Shown here: piece after piece, positions 15,164 through 26,819 of the stretch
How positions within the stretch are numbered: position 1 is the first letter of the stretch
How the letters are laid out: every line of letters begins with the position of its first letter
From: Planctomycetaceae bacterium
Lineage (GTDB): Bacteria > Planctomycetota > Phycisphaerae > Sedimentisphaerales > UBA12454
Direction of reading: 5' to 3'
Assembly (NCBI GenBank): GCA_021371795.1
Contig: JAJFVK010000009.1
Coordinates: forward strand, 1 to 34,738
DNA length: 34,738 nucleotides
The notes under the pieces: model-generated
What the model was told of the DNA's origin: nothing
Databases searched by the model: none
Seen by the model: only the letters and a program-made list of their open reading frames with translations
Program-made: the position numbers and the translations under genes

Positions 15164-16366
15164 TTAGTTTATTGCACCATACAATTTTGCGGCTGCATAC
15201 AACTCTTGAATATTTTGAACAGGAGTTCCCGGAGCCAGATTATTCGCTGCAATCATAACGAATTTCCCGCCAGCCATAACACCTGAATGGCAAATCCTCT
15301 GAACTTCACTACGGATATCTTCGATAGTTCCATCTTTGATAACCATCACTGTAGGACCACCTTTGATTTCCACATCCATTCCCAATTCCTTTCGCAGTCG
15401 GCCGTGGTCAACAGGAAATCCCGTATCAAAACTCCTGACATTAAGGTGATTGGCAAGGAAACTGAAATGCCTGGTTGCGTCTCCACACAGGTGTATACCA
15501 ACATAGCTTCCATCGCAGAACTCGTCCACCAGCCGCTTGTGGTAAGGATAGACATACTCCTGATAATGTTTCGCAGAAACCAGAGCAATCGCATCATCGG
15601 CAAAGCAAAATTTTGCCTGCTTGAATTTATCCTTATCGGGCGATTCTGGAAATTTATCCCATCTCCGCTGACGCATTAGTTTCATCCGTCTGATAAGGTT
15701 ATCTGTAATCCATGTCATCAGATCGTGATAGTATTTCTCATCCGTCAGCATATCAACAAGCAGGTTATCCGCTCCCCGTAATTTATAGGCCAAATCCAAG
15801 GGGCCGTCAGTTCCCTCACCGCAAGTCATTTGCATAACATGCACAGGCCTGCCTTCATATTCTCGATGCTTACAAGAATCGAACATATAATCTTGAAATT
15901 CCAGTACCCGCCCCATCAAACCGTGCTCGACAGGCAGTTCTTTTGGGAATTCGTAAAGTTTTTCTTTATGCTCTTTGAGAATTTCCCTGGTATCAGGAAC
16001 CTGGCTTGGTATGTATTCCAGGGGACAGCCTACCCAACCGGCATCATAGGAATTCTGAAAATCAACACTTACCGACCAGCCGTCTTCCGGCAAACCCATC
16101 TCGCGATCACAAACCCAATGAAATCGCTGCCATTTCTGATATTCAAGTTGTGCCTGAATATGAATTTCTGGATTTTCAAAAAAATCACGAAATGACCAGC
16201 CATTTGTATTAACATGAGGATTCAGAAAATAATTGGTGATACTGCCGATCACACTTACAGGAACGCGATAAGGCCGTCCTTGATTGTAAGCTTGCCATAC
16301 TCTGGCAACCTCTTCATTGTGAGCACGAAAATCAATTTTTTCATTAATAAAAAAAGACAATGTCAT
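15164..16366 (-). CDS. uroporphyrinogen-decarboxylase-like protein (UroD/MtaA superfamily), paralogue 1
   Basis: The product is 400 residues with the TIM-barrel UroD/MtaA fold. A zinc-type HxC motif is seen in H292-L-C294-GD. The C-terminal strand KFVMIAANNLAPGTPVQNI matches the place where MtaA-type methyltransferases carry the last zinc cysteine, but here it has no cysteine. True heme UroD is unlikely, because the gene sits in a transporter operon and the family motifs differ. A role in methyl transfer or small-molecule catabolism is inference. GGAGG is only 2 bases from the ATG at 16366 but 8 bases from a TTG two codons later (16360), so the real start may be that TTG. It follows the next gene by 12 bases. 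Confidence 0.85.
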   Translation of the reverse strand: MTLSFFINEKIDFRAHNEEVARVWQAYNQGRPYRVPVSVIGSITNYFLNPHVNTNGWSFRDFFENPEIHIQAQLEYQKWQRFHWVCDREMGLPEDGWSVSVDFQNSYDAGWVGCPLEYIPSQVPDTREILKEHKEKLYEFPKELPVEHGLMGRVLEFQDYMFDSCKHREYEGRPVHVMQMTCGEGTDGPLDLAYKLRGADNLLVDMLTDEKYYHDLMTWITDNLIRRMKLMRQRRWDKFPESPDKDKFKQAKFCFADDAIALVSAKHYQEYVYPYHKRLVDEFCDGSYVGIHLCGDATRHFSFLANHLNVRSFDTGFPVDHGRLRKELGMDVEIKGGPTVMVIKDGTIEDIRSEVQRICHSGVMAGGKFVMIAANNLAPGTPVQNIQELYAAAKLYGAIN

Positions 16367-16378
16367 AGCCTCCTTTTG

Positions 16379-17458
16379 CTACCCTTTACAGGGTTTGAAT
16401 TTAGTTAAGCCAAATACTTCTCTGTAAGCATTCACTACCGCTATATAATTTTCAAATGGCACACTGCTTGTAATCGCATTGCTAGCACAGAGGATGTGCC
16501 CGCCTTTTCCCTGACCTTGCTCAATACACTTTATTACAGCCTGCCGCACCTCCTGTGGCGAGCAGAACGAAAGCGTATTTCCACAATCCAGGTTTCCGTA
16601 AAATGTAACCTTGTCGCCATACATGGCCTTAAGTTTGTCTAATTCCATTCCGGCATGCCGGTCGATTTCAAGATAACCGTCAACCTCGCATCCGAACAGA
16701 AAATCTTCTATTACAGACCAAAGGTTCCCATCACTGGCGTTGATTGCGTATCCTCCCAGACTGTGAATCCTGCGAGAAATCTTTTGAACTTCAGGAACAA
16801 TAAATTCACGGTATGCTTGCGGCGAAATCATAGGACGGTTACCGGCAAAATCGCCCCCTACCCCGAATTGATCTATTCCCAGACTGAAATATTTATCAAT
16901 CATTCCCAAAACCTGCTTTGTAGCCAGTGCGAAATGCTGATGCGCAACATCCGGCGCGAGCAGCATTGTCTGCATAAGTTCAACATCTGTCCATATTCCA
17001 TGAGCATAGGCAGGGGCAAGTATCGGCAAATCCACATCGCGGCGATTCATTTCTTTGTTGAGACACTCATAAATAAAAAAACTCTCTTCAGCTAATCCGA
17101 TATTTTGCGAAGCTATTTCATTTCTTTTCCGAACAAATTCGACAGGATCGTCACGATTCAATTCCTGTAACGCTTCAAACGGATTGTGCTTTTTTTGAGA
17201 CAGCTGATTTGGAATCACATAGAGCATATCCCAGCCAAGAAGCATAGCCAAGTCTAACTGGTCGACAGCGCTCTGCTGCACCGCATCCAGCCACCCTTTT
17301 TCGAGTACAATCGCATCCCAGTTATCAGGATCGCCCGCATATTTACGTCCAAGCAGAATATCTGCAATCGGCGACAATAAAACATATTCAAAAACTGGCG
17401 TTCGATCCGGCTCTCTATGATTTAGTGAGACTTCTATTCGTTGTCTGGAACTTAACAT
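16379..17458 (-). CDS. uroporphyrinogen-decarboxylase-like protein, paralogue 2
   Basis: The product is about 359 residues and starts SSRQRIEVSLNHREPDRTPV, the typical opening of UroD-superfamily proteins. The position of the HxC zinc motif reads INASDGN, so metal ligands appear absent. The final strand HILCASNAITSSVPFENY keeps one cysteine. It is clearly different from paralogue 1, and the two may form a heteromer, which is inference. AAGGA precedes the start. GTG 17461 and ATG 17458 are both possible and I chose ATG. It lies 23 bases after the symporter stop and is thus in the same operon. Confidence 0.85.
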   Translation of the reverse strand: MLSSRQRIEVSLNHREPDRTPVFEYVLLSPIADILLGRKYAGDPDNWDAIVLEKGWLDAVQQSAVDQLDLAMLLGWDMLYVIPNQLSQKKHNPFEALQELNRDDPVEFVRKRNEIASQNIGLAEESFFIYECLNKEMNRRDVDLPILAPAYAHGIWTDVELMQTMLLAPDVAHQHFALATKQVLGMIDKYFSLGIDQFGVGGDFAGNRPMISPQAYREFIVPEVQKISRRIHSLGGYAINASDGNLWSVIEDFLFGCEVDGYLEIDRHAGMELDKLKAMYGDKVTFYGNLDCGNTLSFCSPQEVRQAVIKCIEQGQGKGGHILCASNAITSSVPFENYIAVVNAYREVFGLTKFKPCKG

Positions 17459-17481
17459 CACTTATAATCCTTTTTGATTTG

Positions 17482-19368
17482 TCATAAATTAAGGCCATTC
17501 ACATTCACTATCGTTTCTGTTACCTGATCTTTTGTTATTGCTGCGTTCTGTTTTTCTGTCGAGAGAATTCTGTCCATATGCCACTTGTAAACCCATTTAA
17601 ATACGAATACGCCTGCAATTGCTATTGCCGCCAGCAATCCAGCTTTAAGATAATTTGCTACAAACAACGCTGAAAGGCTTAGCACCGCACTATCCATCCA
17701 CACTGCGCCCGTGAGTACTGCCAGAATTCCCGAAAAGAACACACGACGCGATGACAAGCCCAGTACCTCACCATCATCCTCTAACACTTTCTTCTTTATT
17801 GGCCCCCATGCCCCGAAAGGCAATGCACGCCGATAAAAATTCTTTAACACTTGCGTGTCTTCAGGTTTTGTCAGCAATGTTACTATTATCCAGAGCATAG
17901 TCGTTATACTGATAGCAATAAGTACCTGTAAAACCTGAAGCTGCTGTGTGGAAGATTCATCACCGCCAAGATGCTGATTCCACCATGGTATAATTCGCAG
18001 CACACTGCCAAGCGTAAGATATATCGTAGGCCCGCCGACAGTAGCTGTAAGCCACGACCATATATTAACTCTCCACCAAACCCATTGTCCCCAACCCAAA
18101 AGAGCTGCCGGCGCAAAAAAACCGGCTATAATAATCATCATACCAAATAAGCTTTTAGAAAAAAAGAGTATTACGACCGCCGCAGCAAGCAGGCCTATCA
18201 TCGAAAGTCTGCCGATCCACATCGCCTTACCGTCTGAAATACTACCAAAAATCGGGCGGCAAATGTCATTGACCAGTGTCTGTGCGCTGTAGTTGAGATG
18301 TCCCCCGATCGTTGCCATTACTGACGCCATTACCGCCGCAAGCGCCAGTCCAAGCAATCCGACAGGCAGATAATCCTGCAACATAATGCCATATATTTGC
18401 TCTCTTTGCGAAGGTGTAGCCTTGTACATCTCCGGATGTTCCACCAACGATCCCAGTGTGGGCAATGTCATTACCAAGAGCATTACAAACAAGGCTATTG
18501 CCGTCCAGACATATACTTTGCTCGCCTCGCGAGGCGATTTGCAAGAAAAAATCCGCTGTCCTTCAGCTCCGATATTGCCGCCAGCGCCCAAACTATACAC
18601 AAGCACAAAGGCAATCACCATAAATGGTCCGAATACTCGGTGTCCCCGCACCGGCAGCAGGGAAAAAATATTCTGTGAATCAATGCCGTGTGCATCAACT
18701 ATTGATGCCGCAAGTCCCGCCGGCCCATGGAAGTGGATCAACACCAATATCAGCAATGCAAGACTCGAAATAAGTATGATGCTCATCTGTACCAAATCAT
18801 TAACCACGACCCCGCTATAGCCCGATATCCAGACATAAATTAGCAGCACCGGCAATATGAACGATAGCGTAATCAGTTTGTTTTCAATGCCGAAAACCGG
18901 GCCTATAATCATGTGTACGCCAAGCATTCCCATTCCCATAAACGGCACTAAGCACAATGCAATTGCAGAGAATGAACTCCATATACGCACAAACTTAGCA
19001 CTTCTACCTCCAAAACGAAGTGTAAAGAACTCGGGACCTGTCGAAATACCCATGCCCCTCCACTTTACCGCAAAGAACATGCCCGCTATCAACAAACCGA
19101 ATGTGAATGCCGACAGATAATACCAGCACACCGACAGCCCAACTACCACTGTCAGCCCGCAATAGGTAGGACCAACATTGGCATTCATGCAGGTTACCGC
19201 ATATGAAATTCCGTTGAGCCAGCCCGGCATTTTACGACCGGCAAGAAAATAGCCGTCTTCTTTATGAGCATTGCTATGGAGTAATTTGCTTGCAAACACA
19301 CCAAATATGAATGTCGCAAGAAGATATAAACAGACAACAACAGCATCTATTCCATGTTTTATATGCAT
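17482..19368 (-). CDS. sodium:solute symporter (SSS family)
   Basis: The product is about 628 residues with some thirteen to fifteen hydrophobic helices. Family features include GYFLAGRKMPGWLNGISYAVT near the N-terminus, GPEFFTLRFGGRSAKFVRIW, and LAAVMASVMATIGGHLNYSAQTLVNDI in the sodium-site helix. SSS transporters take up sugars, amino acids or similar solutes with sodium across the inner membrane. I chose ATG 19368 since AAGGTGG lies 7 bases before it. The ORF extends to 19410 without a ribosome site. First gene of the operon with two UroD-like genes, and preceded by stumps of a sugar isomerase and a sugar kinase, so a sugar or sugar derivative is a likely substrate. Confidence 0.92.
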   Translation of the reverse strand: MHIKHGIDAVVVCLYLLATFIFGVFASKLLHSNAHKEDGYFLAGRKMPGWLNGISYAVTCMNANVGPTYCGLTVVVGLSVCWYYLSAFTFGLLIAGMFFAVKWRGMGISTGPEFFTLRFGGRSAKFVRIWSSFSAIALCLVPFMGMGMLGVHMIIGPVFGIENKLITLSFILPVLLIYVWISGYSGVVVNDLVQMSIILISSLALLILVLIHFHGPAGLAASIVDAHGIDSQNIFSLLPVRGHRVFGPFMVIAFVLVYSLGAGGNIGAEGQRIFSCKSPREASKVYVWTAIALFVMLLVMTLPTLGSLVEHPEMYKATPSQREQIYGIMLQDYLPVGLLGLALAAVMASVMATIGGHLNYSAQTLVNDICRPIFGSISDGKAMWIGRLSMIGLLAAAVVILFFSKSLFGMMIIIAGFFAPAALLGWGQWVWWRVNIWSWLTATVGGPTIYLTLGSVLRIIPWWNQHLGGDESSTQQLQVLQVLIAISITTMLWIIVTLLTKPEDTQVLKNFYRRALPFGAWGPIKKKVLEDDGEVLGLSSRRVFFSGILAVLTGAVWMDSAVLSLSALFVANYLKAGLLAAIAIAGVFVFKWVYKWHMDRILSTEKQNAAITKDQVTETIVNVNGLNL

Positions 19369-19426
19369 TTGGCACCACCTTAAAGGATCGCAAGCAATTA
19401 ATTTTTGCATTCACATAATTGATAAT

Positions 19427-19621
19427 TTATTTTGCGGCTAATAATTCAAGTTCTTTCGAGCAAAGGAACAACGCTCGCGGAAGATGGAAACAGCCCTTCC
19501 ATTTGCCTCCTTTGGACTGAAAGAGAACCTGCCCCTGTCTGCTAAGATAGCCGAACCATTCGCCGAATTCCTTGTCGGCGAAATATTCCATGAGTACTCG
19601 TGTAAATTCCTTTAAAAAATA
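19427..19621 (-). pseudogene. 3' stump of an AGE-family epimerase/isomerase gene
   Basis: About 65 codons remain, read toward 19427. The peptide includes EFGEWFGYL and [18 protein letters not shown], the typical C-terminal end of N-acylglucosamine 2-epimerase / mannose isomerase / cellobiose epimerase proteins (usually around 400 residues). The frame is closed upstream by a stop at 19628-19630. No start with a ribosome site or catalytic core is left, so this is a deletion remnant. Confidence 0.8.
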
Positions 19622-19623
19622 GT

Positions 19624-19740
19624 TTATTTACCTGCGATAAACGCATCAACTTCCTGTCTGGTAGGCATTGAAGCCTGTGCGCCCAGTCGCGTTACGCTGA
19701 TTGCGGCAACCACGTTGGGTTCTTCTATTGTATCGCACCA
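19624..19740 (-). pseudogene. 3' stump of a PfkB-family sugar kinase gene
   Basis: About 38 codons remain. They contain VVAAISVTRLGAQASMP followed by [12 protein letters not shown] and a stop at 19624, which is the usual C-terminal end of ribokinase/fructokinase-type PfkB proteins (normally about 300 residues). A stop codon closes the frame at 19741-19743. The stump abuts the epimerase stump, so both genes lost their 5' parts. Confidence 0.8.
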
Positions 19741-19814: not shown

Positions 19815-22781
19815 CTATTTTACCCTTAATTCGATCACTGTTCCGGCTGAAATTGTATTAGTCTGGCCTGCGGCAATATCCGGCGTAACCCACCTTACAG
19901 ATGGGTCATCGCTTATCCCGCCAACATCAACCGATAATATTTCACCAGACTCGATTGATTTGTCAAGCTGCACCTTCAGCAGATTTCCGTCAACAGTTGC
20001 CGATAGAACGTTACATGTGCCGTTTGAAAGACTGGTTATCGTCCTTTGACTCATTATGGCAGCGCTGTTTGAATGTATGCGCTGATCGAATTCGAGTACT
20101 ATATTGCTGTCAATTATACCCTTTGAAATTCGTTTTAATTGTGGCGCAGCCTCATAAATATCTCCGCGAATGTCAAAGCAGTAATAAGTCGAGTTTGCAA
20201 CATTACTCGCTTCGCAGGCAGCCAAAAAATCATTGTAATACTGATTACTGCGCCGCATGGAATCCATACTTCCGATATCATCCTGTACCCCAACGGGAAC
20301 ATCCGGCATAGCATGCCACGCCTCTTTGAAATTATCAATATAATAATAAACATGTTCCGGACTCAAATCAGAATCGCACCAGTCAGGCCAGTGAGTTTGA
20401 AAATAATGTATGTCCGGCTTGGCTTTTTTTACGATACTGTACGCATCGTTGCCTTCCCATTCAGGTAAAATACCGACACCGCCATTCTGCAGTTTTGAAC
20501 AGGCAAGAGACCATGTAACTACCAGCGTATCAGGCGACGACTGTCTGAGGCCGCCGGTTCCGTTAATTATTTCATCAAAGTAATTCGTAATCGAATCTTT
20601 CCTGTGCTGGACAAGTTTCTGATAAAGAGCTGTGTTGGTCTTAAAATAATACGGGCTTGCAGAATTTGTAAAATCCGGAAAATTCGTTTCACCTGTATCC
20701 GTTTTAAAAATATTCTGATAGGCTGATGACACATCGGCATACACAACCGGATTTCGCGTAACACCGTCATAAACAGGGTACATAGGCTCGGCAAAAGTAA
20801 TCGCGTCAAAGCCGTAAGTATTACAAAGTGCGGCTGCACGTTGTTTCATCCACTGACGATACCCATCATGTATAAAAGAAAGATGCTGAACATTCGGCGT
20901 GTTAAGGAATTCCATCAGCCAGCCTTCCCATCCGGGCGGAAAAATGCTCGGCGAGGTATAAACACTATCTGCAAACATCATCAGCCCTGCCCCAATACCT
21001 TTTTCGTGCAAAGCCGTTACAATTCCATCCTTAATTCCATCTGTAGAGGTCGGTATAATAAACACCGACTCTACTCCGTTGACAGACAGCTCAGAAGCTA
21101 TACTTTCAACGCTTCTGCCCTGCATATAAGGCGAATCCTGTGTAAGCTGAACACCTCCCAGCTTGTAAAATTGATTCCGATAGGTCTCTTTGTCATCCCT
21201 GTGCCATTTCCAGTTTGCAGCTAATACGGCAAAAGTTTTATTATTGATTATTGTTCCATCAGTACCATAGTGCAGCCATTGACCAGCCAGTTCTGCAACG
21301 TCCTGCATATCGATTTTAAAATCAAAATTGTAGTCTCCTGTCGGAGCGCTCCTATAAACACTCAGTTCCGAACACATCAGCCAATTCGTTGCACGAATTT
21401 TAAATCTAATATATCTGGCCGAGATGTGCTGCTGCGGAAAACCAAAATACACATTAAGAGAATCGCCGGAAGCCGGGAATGTTGTGAGCTGAGTAACATA
21501 ATTAAAAGTCTGATTGTCTTCGGATGCATACACCTGTATACGGCTCGGCAGGACAATTCCCCAGCTCGCCTGCTTCATTATCGTTGCGGAAAAACCATAT
21601 TTAGCCGAGATATTTTCCCGCAAATCAATTGTAATCATAAAATCCTGTGTGCCGCTAAGAAAAAAACCTACCTGCGAAGCCATCGTCCAATCAATCTGCG
21701 AATCTGTCAGTTCGCGATTCGTATCAGGATAGCTTGCGGATGGAGTTATACTTGATGTATAGGTTTTATTAAGCGATGCTAATTCAAACCCTTTATTATG
21801 CGCCAGCATTTTTACATAAAAGTTTTGCCTGTCCGTAGTTCGGATCCACCCTCGCATTCGCTGGGTCGGCGTAATGTAAAACCATTCAAACGTCACTATT
21901 TTATCAACATACGCCTTACTGATATCTATCTGAATTCTCGCATCGCTGAATGTCTTGGCCGACCAATCCGACTGATTAAAAGTTTCAAGATCATTCCAGA
22001 ATTGAACTCCATTATTATGACAGGCCACTGCAAGATTTTTGAAATATGGAATTATCTGCTCGGGTTGCCTGTTCTGGTCAGCGCCCAACCCATCCTGAAG
22101 CATTGTTATATCAAAATCAACCTGACTGAGAGTATAATTCCACCAGTTAAAACACGCATCCGCACCGGCATTAAAATCATAAACAAACGGGGCATTGGCC
22201 ACGGGCATATCAGGCGTTATGGCTTTTAGATGATTGACGACCGGATTAAGAAGAATGTTTATGAGCCGGGTATGAGAGGTGCCGGTCCACTCATGAAAAA
22301 CAATCTCTTCGGTCATATACCAGCCCGCAAAAGACGTATGCGGACTTACCAGCGGCAAAAGCTCATCTGCCGCAGCGATGTTATTAGCCGCCATCGAAGA
22401 TAATACCGTGTCGCTTCTATCTGTCCACCATCTGCCGTCCCCGACCAGTCCGACAAGGCATTTTATATTATAAGTATCACAGGCGTTTAAAATCATTATC
22501 AGCCCATTGTCCTCAACTTTGGTTACAAACGGCAGAGCGCTTGGATAATGAGCAACACCATCGGCTATTGAAGGAGCAACGATAACTGTATCCATCCCTG
22601 CCCGACTCATCAGCCCAATTTCCTCATCCCAGTTAGCCTGGGTATAACCGGCCATATGCGGATTAATTTGAATAAACGCTCCGCTAATCGGTTTGGCCAT
22701 CGTTTTCACAGTTAAGAACAAAAAACATGAAACCGTCAACCAAAAAACATTTTTGCATTTTATAAACAGCTCAGTTTTCAT
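19815..22781 (-). CDS. exported two-barrel DUF4434-type putative glycosidase with internal dockerin-like module
   Basis: The product is about 988 residues. It has a signal peptide (to about residue 33), then a first barrel (35-335) opening SGAFIQINPHMAGY with an acidic GWYMTEE motif (E162/E163 in the longer frame) like DUF4434. A discoidin-like beta module follows (370-482, ending YIRFKIRATNWLMCSELSVY), then a dockerin-like loop GDYNFDFKIDMQDVAELAGQWL (486-507) with a degraded second half. A second barrel (545-895, AITFAEPMYPVYDG) and a C-terminal beta-sandwich complete it. DUF4434 is thought to be glycoside-hydrolase-like, but the substrate is unknown. ATG 22781 is preferred over 22793 because GATGGAAAA precedes it. 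Gene symbol not assigned. Confidence 0.8.
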   Translation of the reverse strand: MKTELFIKCKNVFWLTVSCFLFLTVKTMAKPISGAFIQINPHMAGYTQANWDEEIGLMSRAGMDTVIVAPSIADGVAHYPSALPFVTKVEDNGLIMILNACDTYNIKCLVGLVGDGRWWTDRSDTVLSSMAANNIAAADELLPLVSPHTSFAGWYMTEEIVFHEWTGTSHTRLINILLNPVVNHLKAITPDMPVANAPFVYDFNAGADACFNWWNYTLSQVDFDITMLQDGLGADQNRQPEQIIPYFKNLAVACHNNGVQFWNDLETFNQSDWSAKTFSDARIQIDISKAYVDKIVTFEWFYITPTQRMRGWIRTTDRQNFYVKMLAHNKGFELASLNKTYTSSITPSASYPDTNRELTDSQIDWTMASQVGFFLSGTQDFMITIDLRENISAKYGFSATIMKQASWGIVLPSRIQVYASEDNQTFNYVTQLTTFPASGDSLNVYFGFPQQHISARYIRFKIRATNWLMCSELSVYRSAPTGDYNFDFKIDMQDVAELAGQWLHYGTDGTIINNKTFAVLAANWKWHRDDKETYRNQFYKLGGVQLTQDSPYMQGRSVESIASELSVNGVESVFIIPTSTDGIKDGIVTALHEKGIGAGLMMFADSVYTSPSIFPPGWEGWLMEFLNTPNVQHLSFIHDGYRQWMKQRAAALCNTYGFDAITFAEPMYPVYDGVTRNPVVYADVSSAYQNIFKTDTGETNFPDFTNSASPYYFKTNTALYQKLVQHRKDSITNYFDEIINGTGGLRQSSPDTLVVTWSLACSKLQNGGVGILPEWEGNDAYSIVKKAKPDIHYFQTHWPDWCDSDLSPEHVYYYIDNFKEAWHAMPDVPVGVQDDIGSMDSMRRSNQYYNDFLAACEASNVANSTYYCFDIRGDIYEAAPQLKRISKGIIDSNIVLEFDQRIHSNSAAIMSQRTITSLSNGTCNVLSATVDGNLLKVQLDKSIESGEILSVDVGGISDDPSVRWVTPDIAAGQTNTISAGTVIELRVK

Positions 22782-22926
22782 TTTTCCATCCAAACTATAT
22801 AAAATTTATAACTTAAACCAAAACAAAATTGGCAGGCGGTGAATAGCTTCGACCCGCATCCTGAACACAATACAGCAAGTATTACATCTATCACCAGAGA
22901 CATCAACTCCGTTGAAAATCCCGAAC

Positions 22927-25406: not shown

Positions 25407-26819
25407 TTACCGCGTAACGTTTTGGTTGTCAGCATATAAATAGCGTTTTCCTGATTGTTTACTCATAATTTCCGCTACTTTCCGCTCGCGAGATTTGAGA
25501 AAGTTATAATAATCTGTGTAAAGCTTTACCGTGGCTTCACCGCCCGGTTTCTCTGTTGCCCACGGCGCATTCATCAAGCCCGGAAATTGATAACATAGTA
25601 TATGTTCAAAGTTGGTGAACTTGCATAAATCGCCGATTATCCCGCTAATTGAGCGAGGATACAAGGCGTTATCTTCCTCGAATGAAAACATTTCCATATC
25701 CATCCACAAGTGAGCTCCGGCGTCTTCGCAAAGTTTCTGCATTAATTCCGCCGCTTCAGTACCGCTGATATCACCTGCCGGCATACGGTGAAAGCCGAAA
25801 GGACAGATTATATCGCAGTGCTTCAATAATTTACGCCAACTTTCAACAGCACGAGGGACAAAATGGCAATTCGGAGCCAGCATCACCGGCTTGCAGGGGG
25901 CTAAGCGGCGACAATGAGCCTGGAATTCATGAAAGAATTCCACAATCTCACACTGGTATTGCGGGTCATTGCCAAGGTCGCCATACACCTCCTCGGATAC
26001 ATACCATCCATAAAAGGATTTATGGTGTCCATACAATTCATGCAGTTCATCAGCAACCTGTTTGTGCCATTCCAATGAACCTTTGGTAAAATCGAACCAG
26101 GCATACATGCCAACAGGAAGAAATACATTCATATTATGTTTGTCGGCCTCGGTGAGAATAGCTTCCACTGGGTTCTTAGCTGTGATCGGCATTCGTCCGT
26201 GATAAAGACGCGAAGGATAAAAAGCCTTTCCATGATAACCGTCGCCCTCGATTGTGTGTTTGCCATAGTACATCTGATTGCGGAACAATTCCTGGATAAC
26301 TATAATATCCATTTTGATTTCATGCATTTCTCTGACCATTTCAGCCCAGTGTTCATCGGTAAGCTGTCTGATATTTTCATTCCAGAGACGACCTTCTTTC
26401 TCGCACCAGTGCAACAGACCCAGCCAGGCGCCACTGATTCTGCGCGAGCTTGGCACATCAGATGCGATAATCTCAAGCGTTCGAGTCTCGCAAGATTTTA
26501 TTGAACCGCTGGTAGCAACGAAAAACACCAAATGGCAACCGACACTACCTTTTGTCGGCCAGTGGAAACAAACTTCGGTAATCGATTTTGCAGCGACACT
26601 TATATTTTCGCGATGCAACAAACAGCTTTCTTCCTGCTTGCCAAGATAAAAACATACCTCAAATTTCATCGTCTCATTGCTGTGGTTTGTAACAGCGCCG
26701 CGGATATCAAGCTTTATCTTGTCCGTAACCGGCGATGGCGGTACAAACATCAAATCAACAGATGCCGTCTTCAACTGATGCTCAGTTCCAGGTGATAATT
26801 TTTTGTGTGTTAGATCCAT
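25407..26819 (-). CDS. cytosolic DUF4434-type putative glycosidase
   Basis: The product is 470 residues with no signal peptide. An N-terminal beta-sandwich (about 18-118) is followed by a TIM-barrel (about 125-450). The barrel contains the acidic motif FYGWYVSEEVYGD (E276/E277), matching GWYMTEE of the exported relative, and a second acidic stretch LWMDMEMFSFEE. This is the DUF4434 type, related to glycoside hydrolases. The reaction is not known. Being cytosolic, it would act on imported oligosaccharides, which is inference. A MITE-like element lies 54 bases upstream of the start, and the ribosome site (GGAATTTAA) is weak. Confidence 0.8.
   Translation of the reverse strand: MDLTHKKLSPGTEHQLKTASVDLMFVPPSPVTDKIKLDIRGAVTNHSNETMKFEVCFYLGKQEESCLLHRENISVAAKSITEVCFHWPTKGSVGCHLVFFVATSGSIKSCETRTLEIIASDVPSSRRISGAWLGLLHWCEKEGRLWNENIRQLTDEHWAEMVREMHEIKMDIIVIQELFRNQMYYGKHTIEGDGYHGKAFYPSRLYHGRMPITAKNPVEAILTEADKHNMNVFLPVGMYAWFDFTKGSLEWHKQVADELHELYGHHKSFYGWYVSEEVYGDLGNDPQYQCEIVEFFHEFQAHCRRLAPCKPVMLAPNCHFVPRAVESWRKLLKHCDIICPFGFHRMPAGDISGTEAAELMQKLCEDAGAHLWMDMEMFSFEEDNALYPRSISGIIGDLCKFTNFEHILCYQFPGLMNAPWATEKPGGEATVKLYTDYYNFLKSRERKVAEIMSKQSGKRYLYADNQNVTR

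Follow-up and report, generated by a model that had tools for sequence, protein, structure and literature searches.

Fused 3' ends of a ribokinase gene and an N-acylglucosamine 2-epimerase gene: a probable recombination scar in a planctomycete sugar operon

We analyzed a stretch of 34,738 nucleotides from the genome of a Planctomycetaceae bacterium (the window), in which the 3' ends of two sugar-enzyme genes are fused to each other between intact genes. The region 19427-19710 on the minus strand is probably a non-functional recombination scar, left when part of a paralogous sugar operon was joined into the present one and then cut down. The segment would derive from an operon of the type found in the family relative GWC2_45_44 (ribokinase, permease, further genes, N-acylglucosamine 2-epimerase [AGE], AGE-linked symporter), and it would have entered between a DUF4434 gene and a symporter gene of UroD-linked type. 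A single internal deletion would have brought the leader that immediately follows the kinase gene up against AGE codon 335; the 5' part of the kinase gene and all that lay beyond the AGE stop codon would have been lost at further breaks. The remnant would make no enzyme, leaving that work to the intact AGE and ribokinase genes elsewhere in the genome. We base this reading on the identities of the fragments, their exact junction, a frameshift, the intact copies, the linkage of the two genes in one relative, and the phylogeny of the symporter; from these we infer the order of events and a mechanism of illegitimate, end-joining-like recombination, and the scar presumably has no function.

Two gene tails that meet at a dinucleotide

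The two stumps lie in one orientation on the minus strand between a DUF4434 gene that also carries an F5/8C domain (19815-22793; PF14488, E 6.6e-42) and the gene of an SSF sodium:solute symporter (17482-19410; PF00474, E 5.5e-28), which is the position given in the earlier note. Both neighbors are intact, as are two UroD/MtaA-like genes on the same strand downstream of the symporter (15164-17461; PF01208, E 6.2e-17 and 1.2e-19). The listed symporter start (19410) probably lies too far upstream, and an ATG near 19370, preceded by AAGGTGG, agrees better with the alignment. The stumps appear as two open frames without beginnings of their own, at 19740-19624 and 19627-19427. At the DNA level, they match intact genes elsewhere in this genome with E 4e-81 (AGE) and 6e-33 (PfkB), so their presence is not due to chance. 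Together with profile matches, these alignments bear out the assignment to the AGE and PfkB families that the earlier note had made, a claim that it was ready to give up had neither family been matched, and they support its view of the stumps as truncated, dead remnants.

The AGE tail (19427-19604) consists of the last 58 codons and the stop codon, and one base pair has been deleted close to its 5' end. Its frame at 19627-19427 matches the C-terminus of PF07221 above the gathering threshold (E 1.4e-5, 24.9 bits against a cut-off of 23.4), and it matches positions 331-382 of the 384 in the N-acyl-D-glucosamine 2-epimerase model NF052547 (E 1.2e-21), so that the family is recognized by both profiles. 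A complete enzyme has about 390 residues; here, 58 of 392 codons are left, frameshifted near the 5' end. The tail had been put at about 65 codons, which is right as to the gene and too long as to the homology: true homology covers 19602-19427, and the 66-aa frame opens with residues that stem from DNA downstream of PfkB and from a frame that the deletion disturbed. Compared with the intact AGE gene on contig C25, the stump has eight substituted positions over 178 nt besides the single 1-bp deletion (DNA identity is given as 93%). Judging by its sequence, the fragment is a copy that has diverged and is decaying, as opposed to a misplaced copy of the C25 gene, because the lost base is present in all intact copies aligned here, because the stump's own branch carries two amino-acid changes (His to Tyr and Lys to Leu, a small number of sites) besides the deletion, and because the three changes assignable to the C25 branch are all synonymous. 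The differences from C25 are clustered, with two in the first 146 nt and six in the last 32, as if a recent patch had been copied from C25; this is a single post-hoc test (p about 0.0004) on which our conclusions do not lean.

The PfkB tail (19603-19710) comprises the last ~28 codons of a ribokinase-type gene and its stop codon (19626-19624), followed by ~21 bp of the leader that lies downstream. The 38-aa frame at 19740-19624 has no Pfam match; it does align with the C-terminal ~30 positions of two ribokinase models, PRK11142 (E 3.3e-7) and TIGR02152 (E 6.9e-7), and through these two it is placed among PfkB ribokinases (PF00294 / TIGR02152). With about 28-38 of 313 codons left, it falls far short of a PfkB catalytic core, which takes up most of ~310 residues. 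Positions 19710-19603 are 86% identical in DNA to the end of the intact ribokinase gene on contig C13 (L010, 9554-9659). This match passes the stop codon, covers the AAAGGA ribosome-binding leader of the next gene, which after the C13 ribokinase is a RhaT/GlcU-like permease gene, and ends 2 bp before its ATG. The open frame extends upstream through 19711-19740 without a DNA match, a few of its codons (PN.VAA) may still be PfkB, and the 5' boundary of the homology is uncertain by ~20 bp. The family named in the earlier note thus stands, as does the truncation; of the ~38 codons it counted, DNA homology spans only ~28, and it continues for ~21 nt past the stop. In the 74 bp that separate the PfkB frame from the DUF4434 stop codon, nothing convincing was matched.

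At the junction, the PfkB fragment with its downstream leader runs directly into AGE codon 335. The C13 sequence reads GGAATTTA up to the break and AAATGG beyond it, the C25 sequence reads AAAAAG before the break and TACACGAG after it, and the window reads GGAATTTACACGAG. The fragments abut without a spacer and share only the dinucleotide TA (19603-19604, minus strand). Since the genome is in 28 contigs, we considered an assembly or binning artefact in which pieces of three loci would have been wrongly combined into one contig, and we regard this as highly improbable. An overlap of 2 bp is far below any that an assembler would use, and the stumps, with about 4-14% of sites different from the genome's own intact copies, are not those copies joined wrongly.

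A search of the stump site for direct repeats, terminators, and Rfam RNAs found none, so no mobile element is implicated; a plasmid search returned AGE-gene matches only, mostly annotated as such, and a phage search returned no match. We found no excess of promoters in the stump stretch. The AGE frame is open to its own stop codon and includes an ATG (MEYFADKEF...) with a ribosome-binding-like AAAGGA upstream, so that translation of a short peptide of 54 codons is conceivable. That the region serves a function, either through this small peptide or as a leader controlling the symporter, is nevertheless very unlikely: AAAGGA lies about 16 nt from the ATG, a greater distance than is usual, the branch of the stump carries the frameshift and amino-acid changes, and the region has no conserved counterpart in relatives and no RNA family or other such element. 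Most likely, the stumps are silent leader DNA of the operon transcript.

Intact copies in the genome and linkage in a relative

Full-length AGE genes are present in this genome on contigs C25, C24, and C19, and among its eight PfkB genes there is one close ribokinase, on C13. The AGE proteins of C25 (646) and C24 (626) pass the NCBIfam N-acylglucosamine 2-epimerase cut-off of 600, and with a score of 362 the C13 kinase clears the TIGR02152 ribokinase cut-off of 299.65. With intact genes encoded, the AGE and ribokinase activities would not have been lost from the organism. The search for intact copies that the earlier note had proposed was thus successful. Of the two conversions it offered as examples, an N-acyl-hexosamine substrate fits AGE, while mannose to fructose does not agree with the cut-offs that the C25 and C13 proteins pass.

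The same note had recommended looking in relatives for intact genes at this position, and here the result was divided. The stump pair itself was found in 0 of 59 relatives. AGE genes do stand directly before a symporter gene on C25, on C24, in GWC2_45_44, and in G001, and a ribokinase lies upstream in one relative. That relative is GWC2_45_44, where one strand of a single contig (MHXU01000083, C83) carries a ribokinase (19964-19038), a permease (19002-18013), an AGE gene (6692-5514), and a symporter (5498-3678), with a row of further genes between the permease and AGE that includes two DUF4434 genes and a DUF2961 gene. The kinase and permease are thus ~12 kb upstream of AGE, and a single ~13-kb deletion that began in the kinase-permease leader and ended at AGE codon 335 would reproduce the window's junction exactly. 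Among 80 AGE loci from the AGE scan, no comparable ribokinase was present within 10 kb (the kinase of GWC2_45_44 lies beyond that flank). Since the linkage was seen in one genome only, the single-deletion step rests on one example. A ribokinase gene with a RhaT/GlcU-like permease gene directly behind it is a pair conserved across the order (L080, L082, L088, L046, L010, L042).

Both stumps are nearer to the copies in their own genome than to those of GWC2_45_44. The PfkB stump differs from C13 at 10 of 75 nt, compared to 19 of 75 between C13 and GWC2_45_44; over 178-179 nt, the AGE stump differs from C25 at 8 and C25 from GWC2_45_44 at 20. Since the stumps have diverged from C13 and C25 about half as far as these genes have from their GWC2_45_44 counterparts, they appear to come from extra copies within the lineage or from a near relative.

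Symporter phylogeny and the type of operon

The symporters encoded directly after AGE (C25, C24, GWC2_45_44, and G001) form one clade with support of 99/100. The window symporter falls outside this clade as the sister of the G014 symporter (97/96), in a tree that is small (12 rows) and in which it is just 50% identical to its nearest relative. The G014 locus has the order DUF4434, DUF4434, UroD-like, unnamed gene, symporter, UroD, and it contains neither AGE nor PfkB. A scan of genome contigs with the window symporter found no relative, and none closer than about 50% was found in 397 genomes of the class; this exact locus is therefore without a known orthologue.

These relationships bear on an alternative in which an intact ribokinase and AGE gene once stood here, in this operon, served the present symporter, and were lost by in-place deletions. 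AGE does lie directly upstream of a symporter in the four loci named above, and at the head of the C25 operon stands a DUF4434 gene about 78% identical in DNA to that of the window (77.5% over 2704 bp by blastn). Against it stand the position of the window symporter, whose sister is UroD-linked at a locus free of AGE and PfkB, and the homology to C25, which stops short of the symporter leader, at the AGE stop codon. We consider in-place loss possible, though unlikely. On the same two grounds, the window operon is best seen as one of the DUF4434-symporter-UroD type with an eroded piece of another operon type joined in. Given that AGE precedes its own symporter clade and the window symporter belongs to another, UroD-linked one, debris from another, paralogous operon is a better reading of the stumps than that of the earlier note, which had taken them for former enzymes of this operon. 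Its further suggestion that the pathway was re-routed through the UroD-like proteins fared no better: UroD genes flank the G014 symporter in the absence of stumps, and intact AGE and ribokinase genes are still encoded. The UroD genes look ancestral, as part of the operon type.

Because the C25 operon starts with a DUF4434 gene so similar to that of the window, an exchange between paralogous DUF4434/symporter operons is plausible. A broader version, in which blocks are recurrently exchanged between planctomycete DUF4434/symporter operons by end joining, short pieces from other operons are captured as filler at the breaks, and the AGE fragment is such a patch, seems to us improbable. DUF4434 genes are repeated within single operons (C83 of GWC2_45_44, C25, and 25407-26819 in the window), beside SSF, AGE, ADP-ribosylglycohydrolase-like, and UroD genes, and together these genes make up a recurrent planctomycete gene set.

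Comparison with known systems

Truncated pseudogenes are described as widespread in prokaryotes (PMC522871). The stumps resemble those already reported (PMC522871, PMC9336565) in being 3'-end fragments of known enzyme genes that lie among intact neighbors, include a frameshift, and have intact copies elsewhere in the genome, and they correspond to what is called a truncated pseudogene, in that an intact homologue exists and most of the coding sequence is gone (about 15% remains for AGE and 10% for PfkB). They differ in that the two tails come from separate genes and are joined end to end, which makes one deletion junction readable at single-base resolution. The ribokinase-permease and AGE-SSF cluster of GWC2_45_44 holds the same two genes on the same strand, with the kinase upstream of the epimerase; however, it belongs to another genus, its genes are intact and ~12 kb apart, and its symporter is of the AGE-linked clade. 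The G014 locus has a DUF4434 gene, a symporter from the window symporter's clade, and UroD arranged as in the window, but DUF4434, UroD-like, and unnamed genes stand where the window has stumps, and the locus shows no trace of AGE or PfkB.

Overall, the stump pair is confirmed as truncated pseudogene debris of an ordinary kind, with a readable deletion junction, and it matters little beyond this genome. Within this genome, it would document, to the base, a sugar operon pieced together from paralogous operons. It also calls for caution, in that gene stumps are a poor basis for proposing a lost or re-routed pathway when intact copies exist and the neighboring symporter belongs to another clade.
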